Below, piece after piece: positions 7,155-25,309 of a stretch of 64,000 bases of DNA. The DNA is from an uncultured Kordiimonas sp. GTDB taxonomy: Bacteria; Pseudomonadota; Alphaproteobacteria; Sphingomonadales; Kordiimonadaceae. Both the position numbers and the translations under genes were made by a program. Numbering within the stretch: position 1 is the first letter of the stretch; the number at the start of each line of letters is the position of its first letter. The stretch lies in contig CANNEK010000004.1 in assembly GCA_947503625.1 (NCBI GenBank), forward strand, positions 1 to 64,000, given 5' to 3'. The notes beneath the pieces are model-generated. The model saw nothing but the letters and a program-made list of their open reading frames with translations. It had not been told where the DNA came from and ran no database searches.

Positions 7155-7784
7155 CTAGTTCAAGATCGGAACGCCAGTCTGTGATTGTACTGAGCCGACC
7201 GTCACACCGGGCGCGAGTTCCACGAGCGTGATGCTGCCATCTTGCACATCAAACACTCCAAGGTCGGTGATGATCCGGTCGACACAGGCTTGCCCTGTCA
7301 GCGGCAGGGTGCATTCAGGCAGAATTTTGGGGGCGCCCGATTTTGAAACATGGTCCATCACCACGACAACACGCTGAACACCCGCGACCAAATCCATGGC
7401 GCCGCCCATGCCCTTGACCATCTTGCCGGGGATCATCCAGTTGGCCAGATCGCCGCTGGCAGAGACTTCCATGGCGCCCAGAATGGCCAGGTTAATGTGC
7501 CCGCCCCTGATCATGGCAAAACTGTCTGCTGATGAAAAATATGATGTTTCGGGCAGTTCGGTCACGGTTTGCTTGCCGGCATTTATCAGGTCCGGGTCTT
7601 CGTCACCGAGGTAGGGAAACGGCCCCATCGCCAGCATGCCGTTTTCGGACTGCAGGATCACATCCATGCCACCCGGGATATAGTTGGCAACCAATGTGGG
7701 AATGCCGATGCCAAGGTTAACATAGAATCCGTCTTGCAGCTCTGCAGCAGCCCGTTCGGCCATCTGGTCTCTGGTCCAGGGCAT
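7155..7784 (-). CDS. pcaJ: 3-oxoadipate CoA-transferase subunit B
   Basis: Beta subunit (209 aa) of the class I CoA-transferase that moves CoA from succinyl-CoA to 3-oxoadipate. It carries the catalytic glutamate Glu47 in the conserved SENG motif ([13 protein letters not shown]). It is the last gene of the minus-strand operon, overlaps pcaI by ATGA-type coupling at 7784, and is followed by a terminator at 7077-7100. By sequence alone it could be an acetoacetate CoA-transferase, but the upstream maleylacetate reductase and thiolase make 3-oxoadipate the likely substrate. Confidence 0.88.
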
Positions 7785-8491
7785 TATCCTGCCTCCCGTA
7801 CTCGGTTGGTGGTGAACTCAATCTGCTTGGGTTTCATCGATTTGACGATGCGCTGCACGTAGATGCCCGGCGTGTGAATATGGTCAGGGTTGAGCGTGCC
7901 ACTTGGCACAATGTCCTCGACTTCAACGACGGTCACCTTGGCGGCGGTTGCCATCATCGGGTTAAAATTGCGCGCTGTTTTGCGGTAGATGAGGTTGCCT
8001 TCCTCGTCGGCGATTTCGGCCCTTATCAGCGCCAGGTCTGCGACCAAGCCTGTTTCCAGAATCAAGGTTTCACCGTCAAAATCTTTGTGCTCCTTGCCCT
8101 CCGCAATGAGTGTGCCGACGCCGGTTTTGGTATAAAAACCAGGGATGCCCGCTCCGCCTGCGCGAATGCGTTCTGACATGGTGCCCTGTGGGTTGAACTC
8201 AAGCTCGATGTCCCCGTTTAAATACTGCTCGGCAAACAGTTTGTTGTTGCCCACATAGGATGAGATCATTTTAGAGATCTGGCGGGTTTCAAGGAGTTTG
8301 CCAAGTCCGACGCCATCAATGCCGGCATTGTTGGAAACGGCGGTTAGGCCGATTACGCCTGTTAGCTGAAGGGCGTCGATCAGGCTTTCCGGCATGCCGC
8401 ACAAGCCGAAGCCGCCGCACATAACCGTCATGTTGTCTCTGCAAATGCCTTCCAGCGCATGGGCAGGGCTGTCGAAGAGTTTTTGAACCAT
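7784..8491 (-). CDS. pcaI: 3-oxoadipate CoA-transferase subunit A
   Basis: Alpha subunit (235 aa) of the CoA-transferase completed by pcaJ. The N-terminal glycine-rich motif [13 protein letters not shown] is the CoA-binding signature of family I alpha subunits. Near the C-terminus the protein ends in a [12 protein letters not shown] segment typical of this subunit. Stop and start codons overlap with pcaJ (ATGA), and its own ATG overlaps the stop of the redoxin gene upstream, giving tight translational coupling. It supplies 3-oxoadipyl-CoA to the thiolase encoded in the same operon. Confidence 0.88.
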
Positions 8492-9021
8492 CAGGATTCT
8501 CCCAACTGATATTCACCGCGTGCCGGGATGGACTGCTCTATCACTTTGGGAAGCCATTCGATCAGGCTTTTTAGCTCCGGGCGGCCAAATGGCATGGATT
8601 GGGTCGAAACGAAAAAGAGCTTTTTCTCCCTGTCGATCAGGAACAGGCCAGGCTCGCTGAAAAGGGCCGGTTCAGTGTCCTTGCGTGCCCTGGAGAGATA
8701 CAGGCCCCAAGCTTTGGCTGTTTCAGGGCAAAGGCCGTACCCAAACCTGATATCCGCGCTGGGCAGTGTTTGAAGCATGGTTTGCGTCCCTTCAGCATCG
8801 TCCATCGAAATGGCGATTGTAGCGACGCCAAGCGTACCCAACTCCTGGTTCCGCGCAGCTAATTCTTTTAGATAGGACTGGCAAATACCACAATTTTTAT
8901 GACGATAAAAAACGATCATCAAGAAGTTATCAATCGCACATCTATTAAGTGACCATACTCCGCCACCAAGTGTAGGCACTTTCAATGCCGGGGCATTTTT
9001 ACGAGGTCGAGGTCGGCTCAT
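8491..9021 (-). CDS. AhpC/TSA-family redoxin
   Basis: Thioredoxin-fold protein, 176 aa, of the peroxiredoxin-like/AhpC-TSA group. The active-site region is KNCGICQSYLKE with Cys44 and Cys47 as a CxxC pair. The following beta-alpha unit (VATIAISMDDAEG) is typical of the fold. There is no signal peptide, so it is cytoplasmic. It overlaps the genes on both sides (ATGA junctions at 8491 and 9018-9021), so it is an integral part of the aromatic operon. Its task is not known. Protecting the iron dioxygenase or flavoenzyme from peroxide, or keeping thiols reduced, are inferences. Confidence 0.75.
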   Translation of the reverse strand: MSRPRPRKNAPALKVPTLGGGVWSLNRCAIDNFLMIVFYRHKNCGICQSYLKELAARNQELGTLGVATIAISMDDAEGTQTMLQTLPSADIRFGYGLCPETAKAWGLYLSRARKDTEPALFSEPGLFLIDREKKLFFVSTQSMPFGRPELKSLIEWLPKVIEQSIPARGEYQLGES

Positions 9022-9296
9022 GCGTGTACCTCCAGACCTGAGGTGCGAGAAACGTTAAATTCGAGAAGCAGCATGGCAGTGGAATAAGAGGACACACAGT
9101 AGGGTACGAAATATGTAAGGAGAATTTTCCAGAAGGGCGGAAATGACCCCGCTGCGATCAGGTCGCCTTGATTAATCGCGATAAGGATTGTGCCAACTAC
9201 GCTGCTCACCTTGATCGCTCGCAGTGTCGTGCGCCGCGAGGTAAAAGCTGCTGAAAATTGTAATTTTTCACTCGGATTTTGTACTTTTTTTGTCAT
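9018..9296 (-). CDS. NrtS-like small membrane anion transporter
   Basis: Small membrane protein of 92 aa with two hydrophobic segments, about residues 29-50 and 55-80. The stretch VVGTILIAINQGDLIAAG followed by KILLTYFVPYCVSSYS is the pattern I recall for the NrtS nitrate/nitrite transporter family. The start is the ATG at 9296, which overlaps the thiolase stop as ATGA; its own stop overlaps the redoxin start at 9021. An upstream in-frame extension to 9356 lies inside the thiolase gene and is rejected. Being embedded in a halocatechol operon, it might carry another monovalent anion such as halide; that is inference. Confidence 0.65.
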   Translation of the reverse strand: MTKKVQNPSEKLQFSAAFTSRRTTLRAIKVSSVVGTILIAINQGDLIAAGSFPPFWKILLTYFVPYCVSSYSTAMLLLEFNVSRTSGLEVHA

Positions 9297-10510
9297 CAGT
9301 GCGTTCTTTCGAGCACCATGGCGATGCCTTGACCCACGCCAATACACATGGTGCAAAGACCATAGCGCCCATCCTTGTGTTGTAATTCCCGTGCCGCAGT
9401 CATAGCGAGGCGGGCGCCGCTCATGCCGAGGGGGTGCCCGAGCGCAATTGCGCCCCCATTAGGGTTCACGTGGTTCGCATCGTCGGGCAGACCAAGCGTT
9501 CGTGTCGCTGCCAGCGTCTGGCTTGCGAAGGCTTCATTGAGCTCAATCACATCCAAGTCCGATATGGAAAGGTCAGCCTTTTCAAGCGCTTTCTGGCTGG
9601 CGGGTGCTGGCCCAATGCCCATAATGCGCGGCGGGACGCCCACCGCCGCCATCGTTAAAATGCGCGCAACGGGCACGAGGTTGTAAGTCTCAACGGCTTT
9701 TTCACTTGCGACAACAATAGCAGCAGCACCGTCATTGACACCCGAAGCGTTGCCGGCGGTTACCGTGCCGTTTTCCCTGAAGGGGGCATGCAGTTTTGAA
9801 AGGGCGTCAAAACTGATTTCGGGCCTTGGGTGCTCGTCTTCAGTGATTTCAAGCGGATCTTGTTTGCGTCGCGGAATTTGAACGGGAGTGATTTCTTCAG
9901 CAAACCGGCCACTCACCATCGCCTTTGCGGCTCGTTCCTGGGACCGGCAAGCAAAGTGATCCTGGTCCTCGCGCGAAATGCCAAATTCCTCAGCCACATT
10001 TTCCGCCGTTTCCGGCATGCTGTCGGTGCCATGCATTGAGCGCATCAAAGGGTTCACGAACCGCCAACCAATCGACGTATCGTATATTTCAGCCGTGCGA
10101 GAAAACGCCCGTTCCGCTTTGGGAACTACGAATGGTGCCCGGCTCATCGATTCAACACCACCAGCAATCGCAATCTCAATATCACCCGCTGCGATCGCAC
10201 GTGCCGCCGAGCCCACTGCGTCAAGACCGGAGCCACACAGGCGGTTGATCGTCATACCTGGTACTGAAACCGGTAGCCCCGCTAGCAGGGAGGCCATGCG
10301 TGCCACGTTTCGGTTGTCTTCGCCCGCCTGGTTGGCGCATCCCAGAAACACGTCATCCACGCCCAATTCAGCGATTTTTGAGTTTCGCTCCATGAGTGCT
10401 TTGATCGGCAGTGCAGCCATGTCGTCTGTCCGTATGGAAGAGAGCGCGCCCCCGAGCCGACCAATGGGTGTACGGGTGCTGTCACAGATGAAAACAGATT
10501 TACTCAGCAT
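9296..10510 (-). CDS. pcaF: 3-oxoadipyl-CoA thiolase
   Basis: Thiolase of 404 aa that cleaves 3-oxoadipyl-CoA to succinyl-CoA and acetyl-CoA. The acyl-accepting Cys92 is in NRLCGSGLDAV. The GHP motif is in GGAIALGHPLGMSGAR and the second catalytic Cys lies in CTMCIGVGQG near the C-terminus. Its first 7 nt overlap the end of the maleylacetate reductase gene and its stop overlaps the NrtS-like start. Thiolase substrate cannot be fixed from motifs, but the operon order (maleylacetate reductase, thiolase, CoA-transferase) supports PcaF rather than a fatty-acid thiolase. Confidence 0.88.
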   Translation of the reverse strand: MLSKSVFICDSTRTPIGRLGGALSSIRTDDMAALPIKALMERNSKIAELGVDDVFLGCANQAGEDNRNVARMASLLAGLPVSVPGMTINRLCGSGLDAVGSAARAIAAGDIEIAIAGGVESMSRAPFVVPKAERAFSRTAEIYDTSIGWRFVNPLMRSMHGTDSMPETAENVAEEFGISREDQDHFACRSQERAAKAMVSGRFAEEITPVQIPRRKQDPLEITEDEHPRPEISFDALSKLHAPFRENGTVTAGNASGVNDGAAAIVVASEKAVETYNLVPVARILTMAAVGVPPRIMGIGPAPASQKALEKADLSISDLDVIELNEAFASQTLAATRTLGLPDDANHVNPNGGAIALGHPLGMSGARLAMTAARELQHKDGRYGLCTMCIGVGQGIAMVLERTH

Positions 10511-11565
10511 GTTGGCCGATATCCCGAGAACGCATTTTCCAGCAGGTTCAAGAGCGTATTCGCTTCGAGTGGGCGGGGGTTAAAATACGGATTATTGAGG
10601 GTGATTTCAACAGCTTGTGCCAGTCCTTCGTGTGGCATACCAAGTTCGTCCAGCGACGTTGGAGCTCCCCCCGATTTTGCTATGTCGAAAAGTGCTGCAG
10701 CTGGCGTTTCGGTGTTCATGGCGCGGCGCAGGCGATCCATTGTCTCTGGAACTTCTGGTGCGTTGTAGGCAAGGGCGTGTGGCAGCACGACGGTGTGGGT
10801 TTCAGCGTGAGGCAAGTCAAAGCTCCCGCCAAGCACATGACAGAGTTTGTGATGTAATGCGACCCCGCTGGAGCCAAGGCAAACAGCACACAGCCACGCA
10901 CCATAAAGCGCTTCTGACCGGGCATCCGGGTCATCTGGACTTTTAGTAATGGTGGGTAAAGCACGCACCAGCGCGCCGATCCCTTCTTCCGCCATCAGAC
11001 TCAGTACAGGATTTGCGTTTTCCGCATACAGCGCCTCCACAGCATGCGCGATGGCGTTAAGCCCACTGGTTATGCTCATTACGGGCGGTAGGGTGAGAGT
11101 GAAGTCGACATCGTAAATGACGGTTTCGGGCAAGACCTTCATGGTTTTCTGGGTTGTTTTCAGTCCGTCTTCGGTCTGGCCAATGATAGATGTCATCTCC
11201 GATCCGGCATAGGTGGTGGGTATCACGAGCTGGGGTAGGTCCGTTCTAAGCGCAATGGCTTTGCCCAGGCCAATAGTGGAGCCACCGCCAAATGAAACAA
11301 TCCCGTCTATGCCTAAAGCCTCCACCTGTGCCATTGCACGCTCGGTAACGTCCACCGGCGTATGCATTGTGGCCTCGGTGAAAAGGCCAACACCCTTCGG
11401 ACCCAATTCTTCCAGAATGCCTTGTGATTGATCCGCTTGGGGCGGTGTTGAAAGCACAAGCGCCCGCTCAACTGAAAGAGCGTCCAGTTCATGCTTGATC
11501 TGGTTGATTGTGCCGTGACCAAACACGACCCGCGCTGGCAAACCGGTATATGTAAAATTTTCCAT
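10504..11565 (-). CDS. tfdF: Maleylacetate reductase (tfdF-like)
   Basis: Iron-alcohol-dehydrogenase-fold enzyme, 353 aa, reducing maleylacetate (and halo-maleylacetates) to 3-oxoadipate with NAD(P)H. The start is the ATG of MENFTYTGLPARVVFGHG, matching the usual N-terminus; an in-frame extension to 11682 is rejected. The nucleotide loop is FGGGSTIGLGKA. The His-rich metal region is ALHHKLCHVLGG, followed by DLPHAETHTVVLPHAL. It sits 10 nt after the dienelactone hydrolase gene and overlaps pcaF. It joins the ring-cleavage steps to the 3-oxoadipate steps. Confidence 0.9.
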   Translation of the reverse strand: MENFTYTGLPARVVFGHGTINQIKHELDALSVERALVLSTPPQADQSQGILEELGPKGVGLFTEATMHTPVDVTERAMAQVEALGIDGIVSFGGGSTIGLGKAIALRTDLPQLVIPTTYAGSEMTSIIGQTEDGLKTTQKTMKVLPETVIYDVDFTLTLPPVMSITSGLNAIAHAVEALYAENANPVLSLMAEEGIGALVRALPTITKSPDDPDARSEALYGAWLCAVCLGSSGVALHHKLCHVLGGSFDLPHAETHTVVLPHALAYNAPEVPETMDRLRRAMNTETPAAALFDIAKSGGAPTSLDELGMPHEGLAQAVEITLNNPYFNPRPLEANTLLNLLENAFSGYRPTC

Positions 11566-11575
11566 GAGGGTTTTC

Positions 11576-12280
11576 CTAGGTCGCACGCAATAGTCTATCG
11601 CATTTGGCGAGCGCATCTTCGGCGGTCCTTCGCAAAGCCGGGTCTTCGCTATCCAGAAGGGGTAGAAAGTCATGCCCCACACTGTCGTAAATGGTTAGGT
11701 CCATGCTGGGGACGTCAGGGGCCATTGCTTGCAGGCGTTTCACATTTTCCGGACCAACTGCCGGGTCTTTTGCACCCAGCAACATAGTAAAGGGCGTACC
11801 CACGGTGTGCAGATACTCAAAGGGAACGGGCAGGGGGTCTTGATTGGGGAGCCCCTGCGGGAAGCCATAGAGCCCGATGAGGTTAGCCTGTACACCTCTT
11901 CGGGCCAGCTCGAAAACATATAGCCCGCCAAGGCAAAACCCGATGATGCCTGTTATGCCTTGCGAGGCGACAAAAGCTTCAAAACGGTCGAGGAAATTTT
12001 TGTCTGCTACTTTGCCGCGCCGGGCAAAAGCAGCTTCACGTGTCATTTCCGGCAAATCGCCAAACCCTGTAAAGGTGTCTATGAGATATACGCCGGCACC
12101 CATCTGGTTGAACCGGGTGGCAAGGCCACGATAAAAAGGATTGCAGCCGTATATGTCCGGCAGTATTGCAATCTTGCTGCTGGCACCGGGGTTTGCCCAA
12201 TGGTAGCCCGACACCTCGTTTTCAAAGGCGACAGGTTCAGTGGGGATTGGGAAGGCCGCAACCGCTTTGCCGTGACACAT
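11576..12280 (-). CDS. tfdE: Dienelactone hydrolase (tfdE-like)
   Basis: Alpha/beta hydrolase of 234 aa that opens (halo)dienelactone to maleylacetate. The catalytic triad is visible as Cys116 in GFCLGG, Asp173 in LGAKDPAVGP and His204 in SVGHDFLP. The Cys nucleophile is diagnostic for the dienelactone hydrolase family. AAGGA precedes the ATG. The gene lies 11 nt after the dioxygenase gene and 10 nt before the reductase gene. In this context it is the third enzyme of the modified ortho pathway, as TfdE/ClcD are. Confidence 0.9.
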   Translation of the reverse strand: MCHGKAVAAFPIPTEPVAFENEVSGYHWANPGASSKIAILPDIYGCNPFYRGLATRFNQMGAGVYLIDTFTGFGDLPEMTREAAFARRGKVADKNFLDRFEAFVASQGITGIIGFCLGGLYVFELARRGVQANLIGLYGFPQGLPNQDPLPVPFEYLHTVGTPFTMLLGAKDPAVGPENVKRLQAMAPDVPSMDLTIYDSVGHDFLPLLDSEDPALRRTAEDALAKCDRLLRAT

Positions 12281-12291: not shown

Positions 12292-13044
12292 TTACGCTGC
12301 TTTGTCGATGATGAAGTTTACTTCCATGACCTTTTTGCCATCTTCTTCCACATGCGGCATGACAAACTCGTCGGTGTGCATGCCGTCGGCGCAGTCGTCA
12401 CCGACCCACTCCCCACCTTCGAAATAGGCTTGAGTGGTCAGATCATGGAAACCATTTTTGAGAATTTTGTAGTGTACATGGGCCGGGCGCCAGGAATGCT
12501 TACCCATCAACTCCAGAAGTTGACCCACCTTGCCCTGGTTCGGGATTTGATAGGGTACGGGAACCGTACTTTCGACAGAATACATACCATTCTCGTCCGT
12601 CTGCAGTTTTCCTCGATAATATTCGGTTGAAATATTGTCGTGGAAACCACTGTATTTTCCGTCAGGAGTCGAGTTCCAGATGAATATCGTTGCATTGGGA
12701 ACTGGCGTGCCGCCGGTATCCGTAACTTGACCACGCAGGATCATCGGATCACCACCAAACTCTTCCATCACCTTTATTTTGCCATCGGTTACTTCGGGCA
12801 CATCTGGCAGGAAGTAGGGCCCCTGAAGGTCGTTAGAGGAACCTTGTCGTTCGCGATTGGCAATCTCAATAATGGTCGTGTTGAAATAGAGGTCGATCAA
12901 AAGCGGGATCTCGCCCTCTTTCATGGTTTCAGCCATGAATTTCATTCCCATGCGATACTCGTCCATGGTGACATTATGATCGCGCAGCGCATTGCGGACG
13001 CCTTCAACAATTGCTTCGACTACTGTCTCTAGTCGGTTGCTCAT
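12292..13044 (-). CDS. tfdC: Chlorocatechol 1,2-dioxygenase (tfdC-like)
   Basis: Non-haem Fe(III) intradiol dioxygenase, 250 aa, that cleaves (halo)catechol to (halo)muconate. Iron ligands are Tyr131 (DGKYSGFH), Tyr165 (VPVPYQIP), His189 and His191 (HSWRPAHVHY). The length and segments such as NSTPDGKYSGFHD and TTQAYFEGGEW fit the chlorocatechol subgroup (about 250-260 aa) rather than catechol (about 310) or hydroxyquinol (about 290) dioxygenases. The ATG at 13044 has GGAGAG 6 nt upstream; an ATG four codons earlier lacks this. It lies 38 nt after tfdB in the same operon. Confidence 0.9.
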   Translation of the reverse strand: MSNRLETVVEAIVEGVRNALRDHNVTMDEYRMGMKFMAETMKEGEIPLLIDLYFNTTIIEIANRERQGSSNDLQGPYFLPDVPEVTDGKIKVMEEFGGDPMILRGQVTDTGGTPVPNATIFIWNSTPDGKYSGFHDNISTEYYRGKLQTDENGMYSVESTVPVPYQIPNQGKVGQLLELMGKHSWRPAHVHYKILKNGFHDLTTQAYFEGGEWVGDDCADGMHTDEFVMPHVEEDGKKVMEVNFIIDKAA

Positions 13045-13082: not shown

Positions 13083-14867
13083 TCACTCTGCCGCAGCCTG
13101 CACGGACCCGGGCTTTTTGCCCAGTATCTGACCAATAGCATCAATCAAGTCATCAACGGCATTGCTGGCAACAGACTGCGCGCGGTAGGCGACATGAAAG
13201 TCCGGTCGTACCAGCAAGGCTCCACTGTCGCTTGTGCCTCTGATGTCGGCGAAATCACCGTAGGGGTCTTGATAGGTCTTGCCCGGGCCGATGACATATG
13301 CGTCGATCTTGACACCATTGGCTTCTGCAGCGGTTTTTGCGGCTTCCAGCCATGCCTCACCTCCGATGCCGGTGAGCAGCGTGAAGCGTCCACGCCCGCA
13401 CAAATCTTTGGAAGATATCTTGCCGGACTTCGTGTGCAGCCAAACATGTGGCACTGGCGCGCCGGGACGGCTTGATGCCTGATGATATAATTCTTCGTCA
13501 CGGTCCCACGGCTCCGCATCGGTGCCATCAGATACGATAGCGTTCGAATTGTAGCGTTGGTTCAATTCAACGCCGTGGCAGTTATACACGGGGTCCGATT
13601 CCAGTATCGCGTTACGTAACGCTTCGCGCTGTTTCTCAGCCTCCCGTGTGGCCTCTTTTCGCGCAGTCATATTGGCCCGCATTTCTTCAGGGTTTTTCGC
13701 GTTCGTTAACCCAAGGGCTTTTGCGATTGGCGGAAACGCGCCTAAAGACTTGTTGGCGCGCCTGACGATTTGCTCTGCCACCGGCGCGCGCTCGGCCGAG
13801 TATGTGTCTAGCAGGCTTTCGGACGCTTTGCCCTTCAGAACCAGTGCAAGTTTCCATGCAAGGTTGAAACTGTCCTGGATTGAAGTGTTTGACCCAAGGC
13901 CATTTGTTGGCGGGTGCCGGTGGATGGCATCGCCAGCGCAAAATACACGACCGTTTGAAAGCTTGGTCGCATATATGTCGTTAACGGTCCATGTTGAGGT
14001 GCTTTCAATCTGCACGTCAATTGTGTCGTCACCGACTAGTTTGTGAACCACGCCGGTTGCAAATTCTTCTGTAACCTCAGGTGGCCCCTGGTCCACTTCA
14101 TAGCCCCAAATCGCAAGCCATTTGTTCCAGGGGCGTACCATGCGCACAACGCCGATGCCGAGACCACCCACCGCCGATCCTGGCTGGATGACCCAGTAAA
14201 GAACACTGGGGCGATGCGCCACGTATTTGCTCAGGTCAGCCTCAAATACCATGTTAATAGAGCCTGACTTGCCCATCTCGCCTTCCAGTGGCAGGCCGAT
14301 GTCCTGTAAAACCCTTGAGTTGGCACCATCTGCACCAATGAGGTACTTTGCCCGAACCTTGAATTCTGTCCCTGTCAGCCGATCAAGAAGTGTCGCTGTC
14401 ACGCCATCGGAATCCTGCTCCAGGGAAAGATATTCTGTATCAAACCGCACCTTGGTTCCCAGTATGGCTGCGCGCTTAACCAGAATTGGCTCCAACAAGT
14501 TTTGAGGCAGGTCACACATTTGAGTTGGACTTGCCAATTCATAGTCTGCTGAACGGTTGGGGTGCGTGCCCCAGGTCTTGATACGGCCCAGTTCGTCATC
14601 GGCAAGTGACGTGCAGAATGTGTTTTCGCCCATCAGGTCGTTGCCGACCGCATACAGGAGACACTCGTCTTCCAGGCCAAGGTCGCGGAGTACTTCCATG
14701 GTGCGTTGATTTGTTATGTGTGCTCGCGGTGTACGCGCGGTCCAGCCGAATTTGTTGATCAGCATGTTGTCAATGCCATATGTGGACAGCAGTGCGGCAG
14801 CAGAGGCGCCTGCTGGGCCTGTTCCGACGACTAAGACATCTGTTTCAAAAAACTGCGAATCTTCCAC
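13083..14867 (-). CDS. tfdB: Halophenol hydroxylase (tfdB-like flavin monooxygenase)
   Basis: Single-component FAD aromatic hydroxylase, about 594 aa, expected to turn (halo)phenols into (halo)catechols with NADPH and O2. It has the dinucleotide fold VLVVGTGPAGASAAALLS, the DG motif LIGADGANSRV, and the GD motif RVFCAGDAIHRHPP. The segment PRAHITNQRTMEVLRDLGLE is strongly like 2,4-dichlorophenol 6-monooxygenase TfdB, whose length (about 598) also fits. I prefer the GTG start at 14867 because GGAGAG lies 6 nt upstream; a TTG at 14879 would add four residues. It is the first gene of the operon that runs to pcaJ. A LysR box lies about 150 bp upstream. Confidence 0.88.
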   Translation of the reverse strand: MEDSQFFETDVLVVGTGPAGASAAALLSTYGIDNMLINKFGWTARTPRAHITNQRTMEVLRDLGLEDECLLYAVGNDLMGENTFCTSLADDELGRIKTWGTHPNRSADYELASPTQMCDLPQNLLEPILVKRAAILGTKVRFDTEYLSLEQDSDGVTATLLDRLTGTEFKVRAKYLIGADGANSRVLQDIGLPLEGEMGKSGSINMVFEADLSKYVAHRPSVLYWVIQPGSAVGGLGIGVVRMVRPWNKWLAIWGYEVDQGPPEVTEEFATGVVHKLVGDDTIDVQIESTSTWTVNDIYATKLSNGRVFCAGDAIHRHPPTNGLGSNTSIQDSFNLAWKLALVLKGKASESLLDTYSAERAPVAEQIVRRANKSLGAFPPIAKALGLTNAKNPEEMRANMTARKEATREAEKQREALRNAILESDPVYNCHGVELNQRYNSNAIVSDGTDAEPWDRDEELYHQASSRPGAPVPHVWLHTKSGKISSKDLCGRGRFTLLTGIGGEAWLEAAKTAAEANGVKIDAYVIGPGKTYQDPYGDFADIRGTSDSGALLVRPDFHVAYRAQSVASNAVDDLIDAIGQILGKKPGSVQAAAE

Positions 14868-14942: not shown

Positions 14943-15012
14943 CCATCAGGTAAGCACGCTAAAAGTACGCACCCATTCCTATACGCTCAAATACTTTTGG
15001 GGTGGCCAGATA

Positions 15013-15027
15013 ATACGGAAAGAGTAT
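15013..15027 (-). promoter_or_regulatory. LysR box upstream of the tfdB operon
   Basis: ATACGGAAAGAGTAT fits ATAC-N7-GTAT, the recognition pattern known for CatR/ClcR-type LysR regulators (a T-N11-A core). It lies about 146 bp before the tfdB start and just past the tfdR stop. It shares the form ATACGRRWWRRGTAT with sites at 15932, 17218 and 17394. Confidence 0.7.
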
Positions 15028-15034
15028 TGCGAAA

Positions 15035-15919
15035 TTATATCACTCGTGTTTGTCGTATGGTCTTCAAGAAGGCTTCCAGTACAGGCGCCTGACGATGTTC
15101 CCTGTAAATAATATTGAGCGGCAATCTGACGCTGACCTCGTCCAATTGGATAAATCGGAGTGACGGGAATCGAAGTGAGGCGACCGATGCCGGTACCAGG
15201 CAGCAGGTGCCCCCAAGAGCGGTAATGGACAAAGCGGAGGTCACGTCTTCGGTGATGGTCGATATTTTTGGCTCGAGGCCGGCGTTGCGATAGGCACCCA
15301 CAACAAGGTCTGCAAAGCTGGGCCTGCCACCCTGAGGAAAAAGTACCAGCGGCAGATTTGTCAGGTCACTGAACCCGACAGAAACGTCGCTTGTTAATTC
15401 AGTCTCCCGCGAAACAGCGACATAAACGTCCTCTTCGCCAAGTTTTTCAATCTTTATGCCCGGCACGTCGCTATAGTATCTGCCAAAGCCCACATGAATG
15501 GACCCTTCACGCAGCGCGTTTACCTGCGCCGTTTTGCCGAGTCTCTTGATCGCAACCTTTGCTTCAGGCAGGGAATTCTGGAATGCGCGAAGCGCGGTAG
15601 GTACTGTATTGTATATCACTGACCCAAAGAAACCGACCTCCAGCTGGCCTATTTCACCGCGGTCAGCGGCCTGACTACGTTCTTTGGCGCGATCGGCCTG
15701 CGCCAAAATTTTGCGGGCATCTTCCAAGAAGGTTTTGCCAGCATCTGTCAGGGAAACTCCCTTTGTTGTGCGAACCAGCAACTGGGCTTTAAGCTCCTGT
15801 TCCAAATATTGGATCTGGCGACTGATTGGCGGTTGGGATACATGGAGGCGACGGGCCGCCTTTCCGATATTACCCTCCTCAGCAACAGCAACAAAATATC
15901 TTAACTGACGAAACTCCAT
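15035..15919 (-). CDS. tfdR: LysR-type regulator of halocatechol catabolism (TfdR/ClcR-like)
   Basis: LysR-family transcription regulator, 294 aa. It starts at MEFRQLRYFVAVAEEG with GAGGTG just upstream; the in-frame extension to 15949 is not used. The winged helix covers residues 1-60 (IGKAARRLHVSQPPISRQIQ). The inducer-binding domain includes GFGRYYSDVPGI. These segments and the length match TfdR/TcbR/ClcR (about 295 aa), which respond to chloromuconates. The gene lies between the tfdB operon (same strand) and the divergent tfdD. An ATAC-N7-GTAT site begins 13 bp before its start codon, which suggests autoregulation. Confidence 0.9.
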   Translation of the reverse strand: MEFRQLRYFVAVAEEGNIGKAARRLHVSQPPISRQIQYLEQELKAQLLVRTTKGVSLTDAGKTFLEDARKILAQADRAKERSQAADRGEIGQLEVGFFGSVIYNTVPTALRAFQNSLPEAKVAIKRLGKTAQVNALREGSIHVGFGRYYSDVPGIKIEKLGEEDVYVAVSRETELTSDVSVGFSDLTNLPLVLFPQGGRPSFADLVVGAYRNAGLEPKISTITEDVTSALSITALGGTCCLVPASVASLRFPSLRFIQLDEVSVRLPLNIIYREHRQAPVLEAFLKTIRQTRVI

Positions 15920-15931
15920 TTCATTCACCTC

Positions 15932-15946
15932 ATACGGGAAAGGTAT
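15932..15946. promoter_or_regulatory. LysR box between tfdR and tfdD
   Basis: ATACGGGAAAGGTAT matches ATAC-N7-GTAT exactly. It lies 13 bp from the tfdR start and 98 bp from the tfdD start, the usual place for a LysR recognition site serving a divergent target and the regulator itself. Confidence 0.75.
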
Positions 15947-16043
15947 CAATAACTGCCTTTATTAGAATTTTACCGCAAGCTTTTTCTTTGCGTAAGCTGC
16001 GCCATCCTGGTTTCGAGTGCAATGTTAAAAAGGAACGATCACA

Positions 16044-17192
16044 TTGGAAGGCACAGCGTTAAGTTTGGATCAGTCGCCGCGGATTAGCAGTATTGAAACA
16101 GCTATTCTAGATGTACCGTTTGTGCGGTTGCAGCAGTTTGCGCGTTTCGAATCACGCGTGCAAAGCACTGTGCTCATCAGAATCAGAACTGACGGCGAGC
16201 ATGAAGGTGTGGGAGAAGTCGTAACACCCTGTGGCCCATGGTGGAGTGGCGATAGTGTCGAAGCCGTAAAAAGCATCATTGACCTGTATTTTGCTCGCGA
16301 ACTGATTGGTGCAGACCCTCTAAAGTCGTGCGATCTTCTGTGCAAACTGGATAAAGTTGCTCGTGGCAATGCCTTCGCTAAGGCCGGAATCGAGATGGCT
16401 TTGCTTGACCTGGCGGGCAAAATTTATCAAATGCCAGTTTATGATTTGCTCGGTGGCAAAGTTCGGGATGCTCTGCCGGTTGCATGGCCTATAGCAAGCG
16501 GTAACCTTGAACAAGACAAAGCGGAAATGCACAAGATGGTGCAACAATCTCTTGCCAGATCGTTTAAGGTTAAGATGGGCATGATGCCAATTGTGGATGA
16601 CCTGTCGCGGGTTGAACAATTGTGCGATGAGGCGGCACGCCTGGGTGCTTCAATCAGGGTGGACCCCAATGAGGCCTGGACAGAAGTTGACGCGCGACGT
16701 GCGTTGCCGGTTTTAGCTGAACTTGGCGTGGAGATGGTAGAGCAGCCACTGGCAAGATGGAACCTGAAGGCTATGGCTCGTCTCAATAGCTCCTCAGCGG
16801 TAGCTCTTATGTTGGATGAGAGCATATGTACGACGCAGGAGATGTTTGAGGCTGCGGCGCTTGGCTCCGGAAGCATGGTCTCGTTGAAGCTGATGAAGTC
16901 AGGTGGCCTGAGGCGCTCGCAGGCCGTAGCACACATCGCGGAAGCGGCTGGTATATCGCTCTATATGGGTACATTTCTTGAGACATCAGTTGGAACCGCA
17001 GCCAGCCTCCATTTTGCGGCCACTTTGCAGAGTTTGCCATTGGGCGGCGAAACAATTGGGCCGCTTCTGATGGCGGACGATATAGTGACGTGCCCGATTA
17101 CATACCGGGACGGCTGTGCCCATTTGCCGGATGGTGTTGGACTTGGTGTCACTGTGGACGAAGAAAAAGTCACCGAATTCAAGCGACGCTGA
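16044..17192 (+). CDS. tfdD: Chloromuconate cycloisomerase (tfdD-like)
   Basis: Enolase-superfamily muconate cycloisomerase, about 382 aa, that lactonises (halo)muconate; with halomuconates, halide is lost to give dienelactone. The catalytic Lys pair is in FKVKMG (about residue 176). Metal ligands are in VDPNEAW, VEQPL and MLDESI, and the general base is in SLKLMKSGG. The start is a TTG with AAGGAA 8 nt upstream; no better ATG exists. It is divergent from tfdR, so it is split from the rest of the pathway operon, yet it shares the LysR box. An ordinary muconate cycloisomerase activity is possible, but the dienelactone hydrolase and maleylacetate reductase argue for halo-substrates. Confidence 0.87.
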   Translation: MEGTALSLDQSPRISSIETAILDVPFVRLQQFARFESRVQSTVLIRIRTDGEHEGVGEVVTPCGPWWSGDSVEAVKSIIDLYFARELIGADPLKSCDLLCKLDKVARGNAFAKAGIEMALLDLAGKIYQMPVYDLLGGKVRDALPVAWPIASGNLEQDKAEMHKMVQQSLARSFKVKMGMMPIVDDLSRVEQLCDEAARLGASIRVDPNEAWTEVDARRALPVLAELGVEMVEQPLARWNLKAMARLNSSSAVALMLDESICTTQEMFEAAALGSGSMVSLKLMKSGGLRRSQAVAHIAEAAGISLYMGTFLETSVGTAASLHFAATLQSLPLGGETIGPLLMADDIVTCPITYRDGCAHLPDGVGLGVTVDEEKVTEFKRR

Positions 17193-17217
17193 TAGTAACA
17201 GACTCAAGAAAATATAC

Positions 17218-17232
17218 ATACGAAATAGGTAT
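17218..17232 (+). promoter_or_regulatory. LysR box upstream of the TonB receptor, distal
   Basis: ATACGAAATAGGTAT fits ATAC-N7-GTAT and lies 25 bp after the tfdD stop. A near copy lies at 17394-17408. Together they make the 17193-17537 gap a promoter region without a gene. Confidence 0.62.
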
Positions 17233-17393
17233 TGTAGTTAAATAATACATACCACTATGGGTGTACAGTCGCGAGCATTCGCGCTGCATGACTGAACTAC
17301 GTTCGTTCAGTCTTTTTCTGTCAAAAATTCATTATTTTTGCGCCTAATAGTAACATTTTCCATTCGATGGTGTGACTGATACCAGATATGGCA

Positions 17394-17408
17394 ATACGAA
17401 TTAGGTAT
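17394..17408 (+). promoter_or_regulatory. LysR box upstream of the TonB receptor, proximal
   Basis: ATACGAATTAGGTAT differs from the distal site at one position and fits ATAC-N7-GTAT. It lies 129 bp before the receptor start at 17538. Its presence inside an upstream in-frame extension is a further reason to place the start at 17538. Confidence 0.65.
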
Positions 17409-17537
17409 AATATATCGGACTACAAAGTATTAGACCGTATGGTAATGGGTCTTTATCTTTTTCTTCAGAGAGTGAGGGCAATTGACTTGGGTCTTGGCGG
17501 GTTTGCTGAGCCGGTCAACCGCACGTGGGAGAGAGAC

Positions 17538-19841
17538 ATGACGACAAAAAAACGTACCGACGCGAGGACGGCCAGTCTTCGTTGTCTGGCAAGTGGCGCT
17601 TCGATGATTGCATTAGCCAATGGTGCTTTCACGGCTGCCTCGGCGCAGCAGGAAGCACAATCCGGCGATGTCCAGATTGAAGAAATTACGGTATCTGCCA
17701 CGCGCCGGGTTGAAAGCATTCAGGATGTGCCCGTTTCGGTTGCTACTGTATCGGCGGAAACGATCTCTAAAACCGGCGTGATCGATATGGCGGAGCTTTC
17801 GCGCTACATCCCCAATTTCGAGTTTTCAGACGCCAGTATTTTGCCTAACCTTTATGTGCGGGGTATTGGGTCAGGTACCACCCACTCGATTGAACAATCC
17901 GTGGGTCGTTTTATCGATGACGTTTATATCGGCCGCGCTGCAATCAACCTGCACCCGCTGCTTGATGTGGCTTCGGTGGAGGTCTTGCGAGGCCCACAGG
18001 GAACGCTGTTTGGCAAAAACACCCTCGCAGGAGCCATGATTGTCAACACTGCCAATCCAACCCGTGAGTTTGAGGCGGGATTAACCGGCAGCTATAGCGA
18101 TTTCAGCACCACAGGTGGCATTCTTGGGTTTGAAGGATTTCTCTCCGGCCCCCTGAGCGATACGGTCAGCGCCCGCGCGGCTTTCATTTACAAGGATCGC
18201 GACGGTTTTATTGAAAATAACGCACCCGGACCCGATGGCGGCACGCGAGAGGATTTTGGTGGCCGATTGAAAATTCGCTGGGACGCGGGCGACTATACAA
18301 CAGTCGACTTGAAAGCCGAATATATGACCTACACCGAAGAGGGTCAAACCCCCTCTGAAGTGGTGGCGTCCGGGCCTCCAATACAAGCGTTTCAGGCGTT
18401 TAACCCTGAATTCACATTTGAACGCGATTGGGTCAGTCACATTGACTGTACAGCTGAAATTGAGGGTACCACCTTTTGCCCCGATCGCGATCAGGACAGC
18501 GTCAACCTAACCCTGAATGCGGCGCATGAGTTTGAGGGCGCAGGTGAACTGAGGGTTATCAGCGCCTATCAGCAATATGATTATGTGCATCGATTTGTTG
18601 CTGTAGATGGCGGCGTTGCGGGCGGTGCTTTCCGGGCGACACGAGACGAGGAATTCGACGGCTTCACACAGGAGATCCGCTTCACCTCGGAAGAGTTTGA
18701 CAGATTTGATTATATCGTTGGCGCATTCTATGAAAACAGCAGCGTGACACGGCTTCAAAATGATGACACGAATGTGCCGGCATTCCTGGGCGGTGGCCCG
18801 CCAGCGAACACTTTAAACGAGGACTGGTCACAAGACACGGAAACCATTGCTGTGTTTGGCCAGACACGTATTCGGTTTGCCGATAAATGGTCAGCTATTT
18901 TAGGCGGTCGCTGGTCTTACGAAGAAAAAGAGTTCGACTTTTTCAGCCGAACAGTTGCCTACAACGGCAACCCCAATACAGACCCCATTCTGCCTGGAAC
19001 TGCAGAAGATATCTTCTCATTAAGCCGCAGCGAAGATCGGTTTACGCCGTCCTTCACGCTTCGTTATGAAGCCAACGACGACCTGATGCTGTTCGCATCC
19101 ATTTCGCAGGGTCACAAAACCGGCGGTTTCAGTGACCGGCCACAGGATGATCAGGATTTTGATGAAGAAGTGAATACTGCTTACGAAATCGGGATTAAGG
19201 GTAATTTCCTCGATGGACGCCTGCAAGCGAACCTCGCCTTTTACAGAATGGAGCTCGACGACCTGCAGGTTGCACGCGCACTGCCCGGGCCAACGGTCAC
19301 CTTCGAAGTCCAGAATGCGGCAGAAGCTGTCAGTCAGGGATTCGAGTTCGACGCCACCTATTTTATAGATGACAATTGGACCATTGGCGGCAACTTTGCT
19401 TATACTGACGCCACCTATGACGATTTCCCCGGCGCGCAAGCCACCTGTCCTGAAGTGGGCGGTTTTATTGAAAACGGCCTTTGCAACTTCCGGGGTATTC
19501 CACTTATTTTTGCGCCTGAATTCAAAGGGGCTGTATTTGCTGAGTATCAATCCGGGCCAATCATTGGTGATTGGACCATGAGTGCGCGGGCAGACGCCAA
19601 TTACTCCGGCAAATACTATACCGAGCTGGCATATTTCGAGAATCTCTCGCAAGACGACTATGTTTTGCTGAACGCCAGCGTTCAGTTCGCCTCGCCAGAT
19701 GGTCAATATGCAATCTCACTCATCGGCAAAAACCTGACTGACCAACATGTCTTGGCCTGGGGGTTGGAAGCCGGACCAAGCCAGTTTGTAGCACCAAACC
19801 CGCCGCGAGAAATTGGTATACGAGCAAGCTATCGCTACTAG
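17538..19841 (+). CDS. TonB-dependent outer-membrane receptor of the halocatechol regulon
   Basis: Outer-membrane TonB-dependent receptor, 767 aa. The start is the ATG after GGGAGAGAGAC; the in-frame extension to 17388 covers a LysR box. A signal peptide ends near AASAQ. A TonB box-like EEITVSATRR and plug domain follow (ESIQDVPVSVATVSAETI, then VEVLRGPQGTLFGKNTLAG). The rest is a 22-strand-type barrel closing with an aromatic residue (GIRASYRY). The ligand is not readable. Placement next to tfdD and two LysR boxes suggest import of an aromatic substrate rather than iron. Confidence 0.92.
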   Translation: MTTKKRTDARTASLRCLASGASMIALANGAFTAASAQQEAQSGDVQIEEITVSATRRVESIQDVPVSVATVSAETISKTGVIDMAELSRYIPNFEFSDASILPNLYVRGIGSGTTHSIEQSVGRFIDDVYIGRAAINLHPLLDVASVEVLRGPQGTLFGKNTLAGAMIVNTANPTREFEAGLTGSYSDFSTTGGILGFEGFLSGPLSDTVSARAAFIYKDRDGFIENNAPGPDGGTREDFGGRLKIRWDAGDYTTVDLKAEYMTYTEEGQTPSEVVASGPPIQAFQAFNPEFTFERDWVSHIDCTAEIEGTTFCPDRDQDSVNLTLNAAHEFEGAGELRVISAYQQYDYVHRFVAVDGGVAGGAFRATRDEEFDGFTQEIRFTSEEFDRFDYIVGAFYENSSVTRLQNDDTNVPAFLGGGPPANTLNEDWSQDTETIAVFGQTRIRFADKWSAILGGRWSYEEKEFDFFSRTVAYNGNPNTDPILPGTAEDIFSLSRSEDRFTPSFTLRYEANDDLMLFASISQGHKTGGFSDRPQDDQDFDEEVNTAYEIGIKGNFLDGRLQANLAFYRMELDDLQVARALPGPTVTFEVQNAAEAVSQGFEFDATYFIDDNWTIGGNFAYTDATYDDFPGAQATCPEVGGFIENGLCNFRGIPLIFAPEFKGAVFAEYQSGPIIGDWTMSARADANYSGKYYTELAYFENLSQDDYVLLNASVQFASPDGQYAISLIGKNLTDQHVLAWGLEAGPSQFVAPNPPREIGIRASYRY

Positions 19842-21743: not shown

Positions 21744-22928
21744 ATGAGCGGAGCTTACCGGATGCTTCTCACATCTACCGAACAAGTGCTGTTCGGGCGA
21801 CGCGCAGCAGACTGTGTAAAAGAGTTGGTTGAACAACACGGTTATAAGCGCGTGATGCTTTTGGCGAGCAAATCGCTGCGGGACAATACGTCGGAAATTT
21901 CGAATATTGAAAAGGCGCTGGGCGGCAGTCTTGCTCTAACGGTGGATGGCATTCAACCGCACGCACCGCGCGCATGTGTTGTGCGTGTCGCGGATGCTGT
22001 CAGGGCATGTAATGCGGATTTGATTTTAACCGTCGGTGGCGGGTCAGTGACCGATGCCGGGAAAATTGCAGCCCTGCTGACCAAGCATAAAGTAACAGCG
22101 TCGGATCAAATGGAAGCCTTGCGCATCACGATGACCGATGACGGTGCGATGGTGAACCCGCTGGCGGGTAAACAGGACGCGGGCCCCACCATACCTATCA
22201 TTTGTATCCCGACAACACTTTCGGGGGGCGAGTTCAACCCGCTTTCTGGCGCAACAGATGAAGAGACCGGCCATAAGCAGGCATATGAACATCGCGATAT
22301 GGCGCCGAAGGCTGTCATCCTGGACCCGGCGATAACCGTTCACACGCCCAATTGGCTGTGGTTGTCGACCGGTGTGAGGTCTGTTGACCATTGTGTTGAA
22401 ACGCTCGCGTCTCACTTGTCTAATGATTATGCCGACGGCGTGGCCGCAAACGCCCTGGGTATGCTGGCGAAAGGACTGGTTCGAGTGAAAGAGGACCCAC
22501 GGGACATGGACGCCCGTCTGATGTGCCAAATGGGTGCGTGGCAATCGATGATACCAATTGTTGGGGGAGTGCCCATGGGGGCAAGTCATGCAATTGGGCA
22601 CATATTAGGCGGTGCATGTGATGTGCCCCATGGTTACACCTCCTGTGTAATGTCGCCGTATGTGCTGGAGTGGAATATATCTCACAACGCCAATCGACAG
22701 GAGCGGATCCGCGAGTCGCTGGCAGCGGGGGATAAAACGGCTTCTCAGGCGCTGGATGAATTGATTGGTTGCCTTGGCATGCCCCGCACGCTTGAAGAAG
22801 TGGGTGTTGGCGTCGATAAATTTGATATGGTTGCCGAACTGACACTGGAAGATATTTGGGGACGCACGAACCCCAGGCCAATTGAAGGTGCGGCAAGCGT
22901 CAAAGAAATCCTTAATATGGCTGTATAG
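21744..22928 (+). CDS. Iron-containing alcohol dehydrogenase
   Basis: Group III metal-dependent dehydrogenase, 394 aa, NAD(P)-linked and cytoplasmic. The nucleotide loop is TVGGGSVTDAGK. Metal ligands are expected in VRSVDHCVE and the His-rich ASHAIGHILGGACDVPHG. The overall pattern is closer to the maleylacetate reductase-like branch of the family than to 1,2-propanediol or butanol dehydrogenases, but it differs clearly from tfdF at 10504-11565. GGGAGGGAAG precedes the ATG. It begins a plus-strand series with TetR (5-nt gap) and an acyl-CoA ligase. Its substrate is unknown. Confidence 0.85.
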   Translation: MSGAYRMLLTSTEQVLFGRRAADCVKELVEQHGYKRVMLLASKSLRDNTSEISNIEKALGGSLALTVDGIQPHAPRACVVRVADAVRACNADLILTVGGGSVTDAGKIAALLTKHKVTASDQMEALRITMTDDGAMVNPLAGKQDAGPTIPIICIPTTLSGGEFNPLSGATDEETGHKQAYEHRDMAPKAVILDPAITVHTPNWLWLSTGVRSVDHCVETLASHLSNDYADGVAANALGMLAKGLVRVKEDPRDMDARLMCQMGAWQSMIPIVGGVPMGASHAIGHILGGACDVPHGYTSCVMSPYVLEWNISHNANRQERIRESLAAGDKTASQALDELIGCLGMPRTLEEVGVGVDKFDMVAELTLEDIWGRTNPRPIEGAASVKEILNMAV

Positions 22929-22933
22929 AAAAC

Positions 22934-23626
22934 ATGAGTTTAAAACTGGACAGTACGGGCAACACTGCTGCTGATCATGACGGCAGCGTGAAAAGCATCA
23001 AACGCCACCTGAAAAAAGAATTGCTCACGTTGAAGCGCAACAGAATTCTGGAGGAGGCGACAGAGCTGTTTTTTGATCAGGGATACAGCGGTACAACGGT
23101 GGACGAGATTGCTGCCCGACTGCAGGTAACAAAGCCGTTTATCTATAGCTACTTTAAAAATAAAGAGGCGATCCTGGCGGCAATTTGTGAGACAGGCATC
23201 AGCGAAGCGCTGGATGTGTTGCGGGCAGTTTTGGCGGCGAAAGGCTCGTATCGTGATCAACTCATTCAAACTCTATGGCAAGTGGGTGACATGGTCATAG
23301 TGCGCCAACCGTGCGTCGTGATTTATACGCGAGAAATGAAAAAGCTGAATCCCGATGACGCACAACGTATCCTCAGCAAACGCTCTGAGTTTGATCAGCG
23401 TATAGCGAAGCTTATCGATGACGGCGTGAAAGCCGGTGAGTTTGCCGCCGGACCGCATGCAATGGACGCCATCTGGATTGGCGGTCTCATCAGCTGGTTG
23501 CCTGTATGGTACTCGGCGTCAGGCAAACTATCCAAAAAGGACGTTTTGTTTGGGCTCGTGGAAGCCGGTTTGAAACTTATCGGCGCAGGCCAGCTGACAG
23601 ATTTGGAAAAGGCCGGCCTGAATTAA
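22934..23626 (+). CDS. TetR-family transcription regulator
   Basis: TetR-type regulator, 230 aa. The helix-turn-helix covers about residues 38-85: LFFDQGYSGTTVDEIAARL, then VTKPFIYSYFKNKEAILAA. The remainder is a variable ligand-binding domain of the AcrR-like size. It follows the alcohol dehydrogenase by 5 nt and precedes the acyl-CoA ligase by 63 nt, so it is probably co-transcribed and self-regulating. Regulators of this type in acyl-CoA clusters often sense the CoA ester; here that is inference. Candidate operators are the repeats at 21689 and 25366. Confidence 0.88.
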   Translation: MSLKLDSTGNTAADHDGSVKSIKRHLKKELLTLKRNRILEEATELFFDQGYSGTTVDEIAARLQVTKPFIYSYFKNKEAILAAICETGISEALDVLRAVLAAKGSYRDQLIQTLWQVGDMVIVRQPCVVIYTREMKKLNPDDAQRILSKRSEFDQRIAKLIDDGVKAGEFAAGPHAMDAIWIGGLISWLPVWYSASGKLSKKDVLFGLVEAGLKLIGAGQLTDLEKAGLN

Positions 23627-23689
23627 ATACCGGTGACATTCAGGGTCGCCTTAAACACGGGCTTCCAATATTGGGGAGCGGAGGGAAGA

Positions 23690-25309
23690 ATGGCAAAGCA
23701 TGATTTTTATGATCATCGCATACCAGATCGTGATCAATGTGTGGTCAGGTATCTGATTGATCGCTGGGCGCAAGAGGCACCTGATAAAATTTATGTTCAG
23801 TTCGAAGATGGAGAAAGCTGGACCTATGCCGAGCTGAGAAAAAAGGTAATGGCTCTGGCGGTTGGTTACCAAAAGCTGGGCGTCAAACAGGGGGACACGG
23901 TCGCGATATGGTTGCCCAACGGTAAGGAAGTATTGCTCACGTTTTTTGCTCTTAACTATATTGGTGCAGTTTTTGTCCCCTTCAACACCGCTTATCGCGG
24001 AAACATCCTGCATCACGTGATCGACAATTCCATGGCGTCGATCATAGTTGTTCATGCGGACCTTATGCCCCGCCTCACAGAAATTGAACTGGCGAAACTT
24101 GAGTTGCAGGTGATAACCGGCGGCAAGCCCACAGTGGAAACCGGGCTGAAGACATATTTTTTCGATGATCTAAATGGTAGTCCGGCGGACCTGTTGCCGC
24201 TCGATCGTGAGATCGAACCATGGGACCCGCAGTCGATCATTTATACGTCGGGGACGACGGGACCCTCCAAAGGAGTGCTGTCCTCCTATTTACACATGTA
24301 CAGCAATGCAGGCCCAGAGTCCTGGCCTATGGTAACGCATGAGGACCGGTACCTTGTCGCTGCACCCTTTTTCCATATAGGAGGCATGGCCCCTCCCTAT
24401 GTGATGTTGGTGCGCGGCGCTTCCGTCGCGCTGCTAAGCGGATTTTCCACGGAAAAATTTTGGGAAGCTGCCAAGCGCACAAAAGCGACAGTTGTCTTTT
24501 TGCTTGGTGTGATGGCGACTTTTCTGATGAAGCAATCCCCTGGCCCGGAGGACAAAAAACACGGTGTCAAAAAAGCCTTCATGGTGCCGTTATCGGATGA
24601 TGCACTCGCGTTTCATGAGAGGTTCAATGTAGATATCTACACGATATTCAACATGACAGAGATTTCTTCACCCATCGTCTCCGGGCCCAACCCGACCGTA
24701 CGCGGGACATGCGGCACTGTGCGGCCAGGTGTCGATGTTCGGTTGGTTGATGAAAACGACTGCGAAATTCCGGTTGGCGAAGTCGGCGAGATGATCATTC
24801 GCACAGATCGCCCGTGGGGTATGAATAGCGGCTATTTCAATAATGCCAAGGCAACCGCCGAGGCCTGGCGCAATGGCTGGTTCCATACAGGTGATGCTTT
24901 TCGTCAGGATGAAAACGGCTATTTTTATTTTGTTGACCGTATAAAGGATGCCATTCGCCGACGGGGGGAAAATATCTCGTCTTTTGAGGTGGAGGTAGAG
25001 GTTTGCAGCCACCCAGCGGTGCGTGAGGCCGCTGCAATCGGCGTGCCCAGTGAAGCAACCGAGGACGATGTTATGGTCGTTGTTGCCCTCGTTGAAGATG
25101 CGGAAATTGATCCTGAAGGACTGTGTGCTTACCTGCAGGAGCGGATGCCATACTATATGGTCCCGCGCCATATAAGAATTGTAGACGCGCTTCCAAAAAC
25201 GCCAACGGAAAAAGTGAAAAAGGCTGAGTTGCGTGCCGTTGGTGTCACACCAGATACGTGGGACAGGGAAGCCGCGGGCATTCGTTTAAAGCGAGAGAAC
25301 CTACGATAA
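23690..25309 (+). CDS. AMP-forming acyl-CoA ligase (CaiC-like)
   Basis: Adenylate-forming ligase, 539 aa, that couples a carboxylic acid to CoA using ATP. The start is the ATG following GGAGGGAAGA; the longer frame from 23633 is not used. Motifs in order: A3 IIYTSGTTGPSKG, A5-like FNMTEIS, A7-A8 GWFHTGDAFRQDENGYFYFV then DRIKDAIRRRGENIS, and the A10 Lys in PTEKVKKAEL. The general pattern is like crotonobetaine/carnitine-CoA ligases, but the acid is unknown. With the racemase-like gene, the dehydrogenase and the monooxygenase nearby, it likely handles a side-chain acid from the same substrate. Confidence 0.88.
   Translation: MAKHDFYDHRIPDRDQCVVRYLIDRWAQEAPDKIYVQFEDGESWTYAELRKKVMALAVGYQKLGVKQGDTVAIWLPNGKEVLLTFFALNYIGAVFVPFNTAYRGNILHHVIDNSMASIIVVHADLMPRLTEIELAKLELQVITGGKPTVETGLKTYFFDDLNGSPADLLPLDREIEPWDPQSIIYTSGTTGPSKGVLSSYLHMYSNAGPESWPMVTHEDRYLVAAPFFHIGGMAPPYVMLVRGASVALLSGFSTEKFWEAAKRTKATVVFLLGVMATFLMKQSPGPEDKKHGVKKAFMVPLSDDALAFHERFNVDIYTIFNMTEISSPIVSGPNPTVRGTCGTVRPGVDVRLVDENDCEIPVGEVGEMIIRTDRPWGMNSGYFNNAKATAEAWRNGWFHTGDAFRQDENGYFYFVDRIKDAIRRRGENISSFEVEVEVCSHPAVREAAAIGVPSEATEDDVMVVVALVEDAEIDPEGLCAYLQERMPYYMVPRHIRIVDALPKTPTEKVKKAELRAVGVTPDTWDREAAGIRLKRENLR

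Follow-up and report, generated by a model that had tools for sequence, protein, structure and literature searches.

The 64,000-nt stretch analysed here (positions 1 to 64,000 of contig CANNEK010000004.1 from an uncultured Kordiimonas sp., hereafter the window) carries a gene for a LysR-type regulator of the CbnR/ClcR/TfdR type, and this protein can be predicted with good confidence to govern one regulon composed of the operon running from tfdB to a thiolase gene, the cycloisomerase gene tfdD, and a gene for a TonB-dependent receptor. The sites, the promoter architecture, and their conservation were computed, and from these we infer binding. The original prediction named four boxes, at 15013, 15932, 17218, and 17394, and all four fit ATAC-N7-GTAT and the common ATACGRRWWRRGTAT exactly. 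It also placed every box upstream of tfdB, tfdR/tfdD, or the receptor gene and joined them into a LysR regulon that includes the receptor. Both statements hold for three boxes, on promoter anatomy and comparative genomics (weakly for tfdD), but not for 17218, which is an orphan. Because of a composite element, its conservation, and the type of the regulator, the boxes at 15013, 15932, and 17394 probably act as promoter operators, and membership of the receptor in the regulon is very probable. The box at 15932 probably drives tfdD and is predicted to autoregulate lysR too.

The pattern ATAC-N7-GTAT was found five times in the window, with 0.47 expected from shuffles; the fifth match, at 55697, is inside the open reading frame (ORF) 53781-57014. 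A scan of the whole genome, as the original prediction had proposed, gave 36 distinct places versus 29 for the reversed pattern, so the bare motif does not stand out here. Outside the window there are 31 places, of which 25 are within ORFs of at least 90 aa; at none of the other six is GTATT present 18 bp downstream on either strand. The clustering, unlike the bare motif, is exceptional, as four boxes were found in three intergenic regions where about 0.015 are expected, and none of 5000 dinucleotide shuffles reached at least four there. One of those six places outside the window, C2:684607, is also the sole further fit to ATACGRRWWRRGTAT in the set of 36; it overlaps a long ORF at its 3' end, one that looks by eye like a permease gene, and was discarded as a chance match. 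At L111 (G000:C6:39600-45400), three identical ATACCAATCCGGTAT sites lie within a single open frame that spans at least 1933 aa and may encode a repeat-rich protein.

The promoters of tfdB and of the receptor share a longer composite, which consists of the box, 18 bp, and GTATT(A/T)GA(C/G)CGTAT. When up to two mismatches are permitted, this composite is located in the genome solely before these two genes. The two promoters match at 31 of the 50 positions after the box, and 0 of 5000 shuffle pairs were as good. The second element of tfdB runs into TTGAGC, a -35-like hexamer, and would thus overlap the -35 region; -10 boxes can be drawn by eye in these promoters. The pattern ATAC-N7-GTAT-N17-AGNATT, derived from the three promoters that it matches, has three exact matches in 4.07 Mb, which are the promoters of tfdB, tfdD, and the receptor. 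Between tfdD and the receptor promoter is a terminator-like hairpin (z of -2.09, with 4 of 200 shuffles as stable; such sites number six in the stretch versus 2.7 expected), and the receptor is therefore probably not merely read from tfdD.

The nearest named relative (locus L048) is also an uncultured Kordiimonas sp., with tfdD 83% identical. There, the four boxes retain each of their 32 half-site bases, and the 7-bp core differs at three of the four; the inner consensus ATACGRRWWRRGTAT, to which the original prediction had pointed, is thus not what is conserved. A 21-bp block at the tfdB second element and a 23-bp block at that of the receptor are identical in L048, the latter within an alignment 58% identical overall. 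Among 29 genomes of the family, the longer composite (up to two mismatches) gave six matches, two in each of three genomes (reversed control: two), and the same three are the only ones with a receptor ortholog and with tfdD relatives at least 47% identical. The family-wide gene searches took in tfdD and the receptor, and those for the receptor scored the best candidates of each genome (up to 36 in the family and 10 in the family of the Henriciella genome G478). As the composite was derived from the window, its matches in G019, a member of another genus, are the independent test. In that genome the gene order is changed, with receptor and tfdB forming a divergent pair 6-9 kb away from lysR; the receptor (L071) has the full composite, and a copy with one box mismatch precedes tfdC. 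Box-N18-GTATT precedes each of the four receptor orthologs that were found intact (those of the window, L048, G019, and G478). In G478 (L092), box and GTATT are followed by a small ORF and then by the receptor; this ORF (L092 4096-4416) encodes 106 aa, with no Pfam match and with a signal-like N-terminus by eye. In the family of G478, a receptor match was obtained for two of 105 genomes and is truncated in one. The receptor ortholog of G489 is 5'-truncated, its match beginning at residue 221. Box-N18-GTATT is carried there by another TonB receptor, of about 30% identity, whose gene comes just after lysR. The two receptors (L094 9287-10999 and 13822-16095) look as if one had been swapped for the other.

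Outside these genomes, box-N18-GTATT was identified before tfd-type genes of Paraburkholderia (L049) and of Sphingomonas plasmid pCADAB1. On plasmid pDB-4 of Sphingopyxis sp. DBS4, a short ORF with a Plug domain is divergent from a LysR gene and has the element with one box mismatch. A relaxed version of the element, at one mismatch, occurs in four of 385 genomes of the class, including that of the window; in G264 and G360 it adjoins the gene for a LysR of 40-41% identity, with no TonB receptor linked to it, and G247 has one one-mismatch match. The family genome G008 encodes a cycloisomerase 38% identical to tfdD and has no composite; its pathway is presumably an ordinary catechol one. In the 25 non-orphan promoters tabulated by the analyst's choice (those of L096, L097, L099, and L100 being excluded), GTATT is at exactly +18 in 21, a count that is partly circular because scans for that element supplied some of the rows. 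The spacing is 18 in 15 of 15 composite rows, not all independent, though 17 and 19 were permitted. Box scans in relatives covered nine of 22 loci (L048-L056), and plasmid scans covered six regions from 42 plasmid records with a LysR relative.

The box at 17218 starts 26 bases past the end of the tfdD stop codon, ahead of the hairpin. No recognisable promoter directly follows it, and both strands lack a second element there, in L048 as in the window. In L048 an orphan box (8184-8198) is likewise just after the tfdD stop, in diverged surroundings. A further, unassigned box in G019 (L071, 8961) lies about 470 bp beyond the end of the tfdD match. The window box may be an auxiliary operator. Mainly repressive action of LysR on the receptor, e.g., by looping between 17218 and 17394, which are 176 bp apart, is improbable and could partly coexist with activation. 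Effector-free BenM/CatM tetramers repress by binding two sites (passages of PMC6628147, the other papers being cited here from passages too), and L048 also has both boxes, 186 bp apart. Yet the geometry of box and second element at the receptor is that of the tfdB promoter, G478 has no second exact box before that of the receptor in the stretch examined, and in G019 the next box upstream, at 263 bp, has been attributed to the divergent tfdB.

The receptor has both the Plug (PF07715) and the beta-barrel domain (PF00593) above cut-off. Its top NCBIfam match is a siderophore-receptor subfamily, below the cut-off of that model, and TonB receptors are abundant, with four in the window; together with the 36 motif places in the genome, this would suit receptor-side boxes that are chance or relic, beside an unrelated iron or nutrient transporter merely adjoining the tfd genes. 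Such an explanation is unlikely, as the two-part element is kept in L048 within diverged DNA, the same element precedes the ortholog in the rearranged locus of G019, and receptor and element co-occur in three of 29 family genomes. Nor is there a conspicuous Fur-like site before the receptor gene, the best (12/19) being equalled by 45% of shuffles; for the Irr-like and alphaproteobacterial Fur-like motifs the analysis covered the top match alone, with no shuffle comparison. Relatives of the receptor on plasmids were absent at 1e-100 and numbered 64 records at 1e-40, 25 of which are listed, at 26.7-30.4% identity. In the class sample of 385 genomes, with the two best candidates per genome scored, the receptor was found at 1e-170 in the genome of the window only. 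A structure predicted from a three-sequence alignment has a mean predicted local distance difference test (pLDDT) score of 26.8, too low for a fold search.

The LysR protein has helix-turn-helix and substrate-binding domains and is nearest to chlorocatechol-type regulators. The closest solved structure is PDB 1ixc (E 3e-87), which we take to be CbnR, and the segment SQPP(I/V)(S/T)R is kept in all eight aligned proteins, the window LysR included. Among 34 candidates in the genome, it alone matches at E<=1e-40. It is very improbable that the receptor promoter is real and read by a different LysR with the same half-site preference, although other LysR proteins are coded in the genome (e.g., 60437-61348) and ATAC-N7-GTAT suits several CatR-group regulators, since only one of the 34 candidates matches this LysR at that threshold and the whole element is common to the receptor and tfdB promoters, so that one protein should read both.

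Several results weigh against the proposed regulon. The box at 17218 is an orphan. The tfdD promoter is not significantly similar over 50 bp (1110/5000 and 286/5000 shuffle pairs as good), and the pattern ATAC-N7-GTAT-N17-AGNATT at up to two mismatches is little above background (60 matches on both strands versus 46 in the control). A strict sigma-70 scan of the region predicted no promoter, versus 2.8 in shuffles, which fits an activator-dependent promoter and is no proof of one. GTATT is not at +18 in the promoters of L071 tfdB (off by one), window and L048 tfdD (GAATT), and L092 tfdD. The box of G478 is about 630 bp before the receptor start, ahead of the small ORF. Neither of the two TonB receptors beside tfd genes on pCADAB1 has the element, and two Halieaceae loci have boxes and no receptor match within the 14-15 kb examined; the coupling of LysR and receptor is not universal. 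Small phenols might also cross the outer membrane without a receptor.

In the proposed regulon, a LysR tetramer would sit on the ATAC-N7-GTAT box and, with a pathway intermediate bound (halomuconate by analogy), would also engage the second element 18 bp downstream. This element would overlap the -35 region, and RNA polymerase would be recruited. The receptor would have a separate LysR-activated promoter, split from tfdD by the terminator-like hairpin, so that outer-membrane uptake and ring cleavage would be switched on together. If the inducer is halomuconate, as the regulator subgroup suggests, expression of the receptor would depend on metabolised cargo, i.e., there would probably be positive feedback through the inducing intermediate. 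It is a tentative proposal that the receptor imports a halogenated aromatic or larger halophenol precursor, its gene being switched on by cargo-derived halomuconate, and that chlorocatechol-type LysR regulators have recruited TonB receptors which are replaceable (G489) with the promoter logic kept.

The chlorocatechol-pathway set is complete at family level, with dioxygenase, cycloisomerase, dienelactone hydrolase, and reductase, the last at Fe-ADH level (Table 1). Names such as tfdB and HbpA are used here as labels. The Fe-ADH protein is probably a maleylacetate reductase, judging from gene context and a 44%-identical relative in the L049 cluster, and the thiolase is probably a 3-oxoadipyl-CoA thiolase. 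An AhpC/TSA-family (peroxiredoxin-like) gene, 8491-9021, is coded between the thiolase and coenzyme A (CoA)-transferase genes. No match to muconolactone isomerase (PF02426) was found in the genome of the window (as a control, the profile matches two of 14 genomes), which fits the dienelactone route of halocatechols. The pathway probably degrades halogenated phenols. The term halocatechol genes, as used in the original prediction, is likely to be right and is unproven. The hydroxylase is nearer to 2-hydroxybiphenyl 3-monooxygenase (E 1.7e-202) than to 2,4-dichlorophenol 6-monooxygenase (3.5e-156), so its substrate may be another ortho-substituted phenol. The dioxygenase has 333.9 bits against the chlorocatechol model TIGR02465, below the cut-off of 359.25, and the cycloisomerase scores slightly higher against muconate than chloromuconate cycloisomerases.

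Table 1. Features of the predicted regulon, with positions in the window.
Feature	Position	Strand	Basis or remark
Two CoA-transferase genes	7155-7784 and 7784-8491	-	PF01144; putative operon members
Thiolase	9296..10510	-	family match
Fe-ADH family protein, tfdF-like	10504..11565	-	family match; predicted start
Dienelactone hydrolase family protein, tfdE-like	11576..12280	-	family match; no NCBIfam match
Chlorocatechol-type 1,2-dioxygenase, tfdC-like	12292..13044	-	family match; predicted start
Flavin adenine dinucleotide (FAD) phenol hydroxylase, tfdB-like	13083..14867	-	family match; predicted GTG start
Second element GTATTTGAGCGTAT, tfdB promoter	14981..14994	-	18 bp after box; inside the block identical in L048
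Putative recognition box ATACTCTTTCCGTAT, tfdB operon promoter	15013..15027	-	exact match; half-sites kept in L048
LysR-type regulator, CbnR/ClcR/TfdR type, 294 aa	15035..15919	-	domain match; nearest structure; alignment
Box between divergent lysR and tfdD	15932..15946	+	exact match; identical in L048
Weaker second element GAATTTTACCGCAA, tfdD	15965..15978	+	9/14 positions in common with each other element
Muconate/chloromuconate-family cycloisomerase, tfdD-like	16044..17192	+	TIGR02534 above cut-off; predicted start
Orphan box just 3' of tfdD stop	17218..17232		exact match; box at same relative place in L048
Terminator-like hairpin then T-run, between tfdD and receptor promoter	17290..17312	+	terminator scan and folding
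Putative recognition box ATACGAATTAGGTAT, receptor promoter	17394..17408	+	exact match; part of composite element
Second element GTATTAGACCGTAT, receptor promoter	17427..17440	+	inside the block identical in L048
TonB-dependent receptor gene, 767 aa from predicted ATG	17538..19841	+	Plug and beta-barrel

Other genes in the window were annotated as well. A second catabolic-looking cluster (21744-29665) encodes Fe-ADH, a TetR regulator, an AMP-binding enzyme, a TonB receptor (25414-27663), and a flavin monooxygenase-like protein, and no exact ATAC-N7-GTAT box was found in it. A row of genes at 30670-39523 encodes a hybrid histidine kinase, an AraC regulator, a TonB receptor (34855-37110), and, at 37307-39523, a peroxidase-family protein that may be a catalase-peroxidase. 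The region 43639-60380 encodes a sulfotransferase/tetratricopeptide repeat (TPR) protein, an ABC transporter, a TonB receptor (47877-49901), and a PepSY-TM protein; behind these come three long proteins in tandem, of 1070-1094 aa, which contain Sortilin/Vps10 and BNR repeats.

The locus resembles CbnR/ClcR/TfdR regulons in regulator type, in the box with a second element, and in lysR being divergent from the cycloisomerase gene, but differs from them in the TonB receptor within the regulon. In the main text of a betaproteobacterial survey of these regulons, the words TonB and porin do not occur and outer membrane occurs once (PMC6449761). BenM/CatM of Acinetobacter have the same box consensus at Site 1, ATAC-N7-GTAT, and in a model Site 2 of PbenA overlaps the -35 region (PMC6628147), which resembles the second element of tfdB; theirs is a benzoate/catechol pathway, and a TonB receptor is unnamed in those passages. 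Control of a TonB receptor by an aromatic-pathway LysR, called unusual in the original prediction, is so only in part. In Sphingopyxis granuli TFA, the LysR-type ThnR activates PM, the promoter of an operon that begins with thnM, a gene for a TonB-dependent protein, and high- and low-affinity sites were footprinted in each promoter region (PMC6563040, PMC4834489). Here, conserved candidate sites for a LysR-type activator lie before a TonB-receptor gene. The ThnR system differs in that it serves the tetralin pathway, needs the co-activator ThnY, and has thnM, of unknown function, in an operon with catabolic genes. DdvR of Sphingobium SYK-6 is likewise an aromatic-pathway regulator that co-controls a TonB receptor, the substrate importer ddvT, as shown with mutants (PMC6874591), but it is a MarR-type repressor and the substrate is a lignin-derived biphenyl. 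TonB receptors have also been described beside tfd genes, such regulation not being stated in the passages concerned (PMC3877037), and deletion of the repressor PheR raises expression of a TonB receptor (PMC13273656). Among the matches listed, with subscription journals mostly outside the scope, there was no report of a ClcR/TfdR/CbnR-type regulon with a TonB receptor. A LysR protein driving a TonB-protein operon has thus been published already (ThnR), and it is this regulator subgroup and the conservation that appear to be new.

Marine and sphingomonad-like bacteria have many TonB receptors, and the cargo is known for few of these. A conserved operator that ties a receptor to one catabolic pathway leads to a testable hypothesis on its cargo. 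If the proposed regulon is true, box-N18-GTATT would be a short promoter signature for finding other pathway-linked receptors, and chlorocatechol-type LysR regulons could include active outer-membrane uptake.

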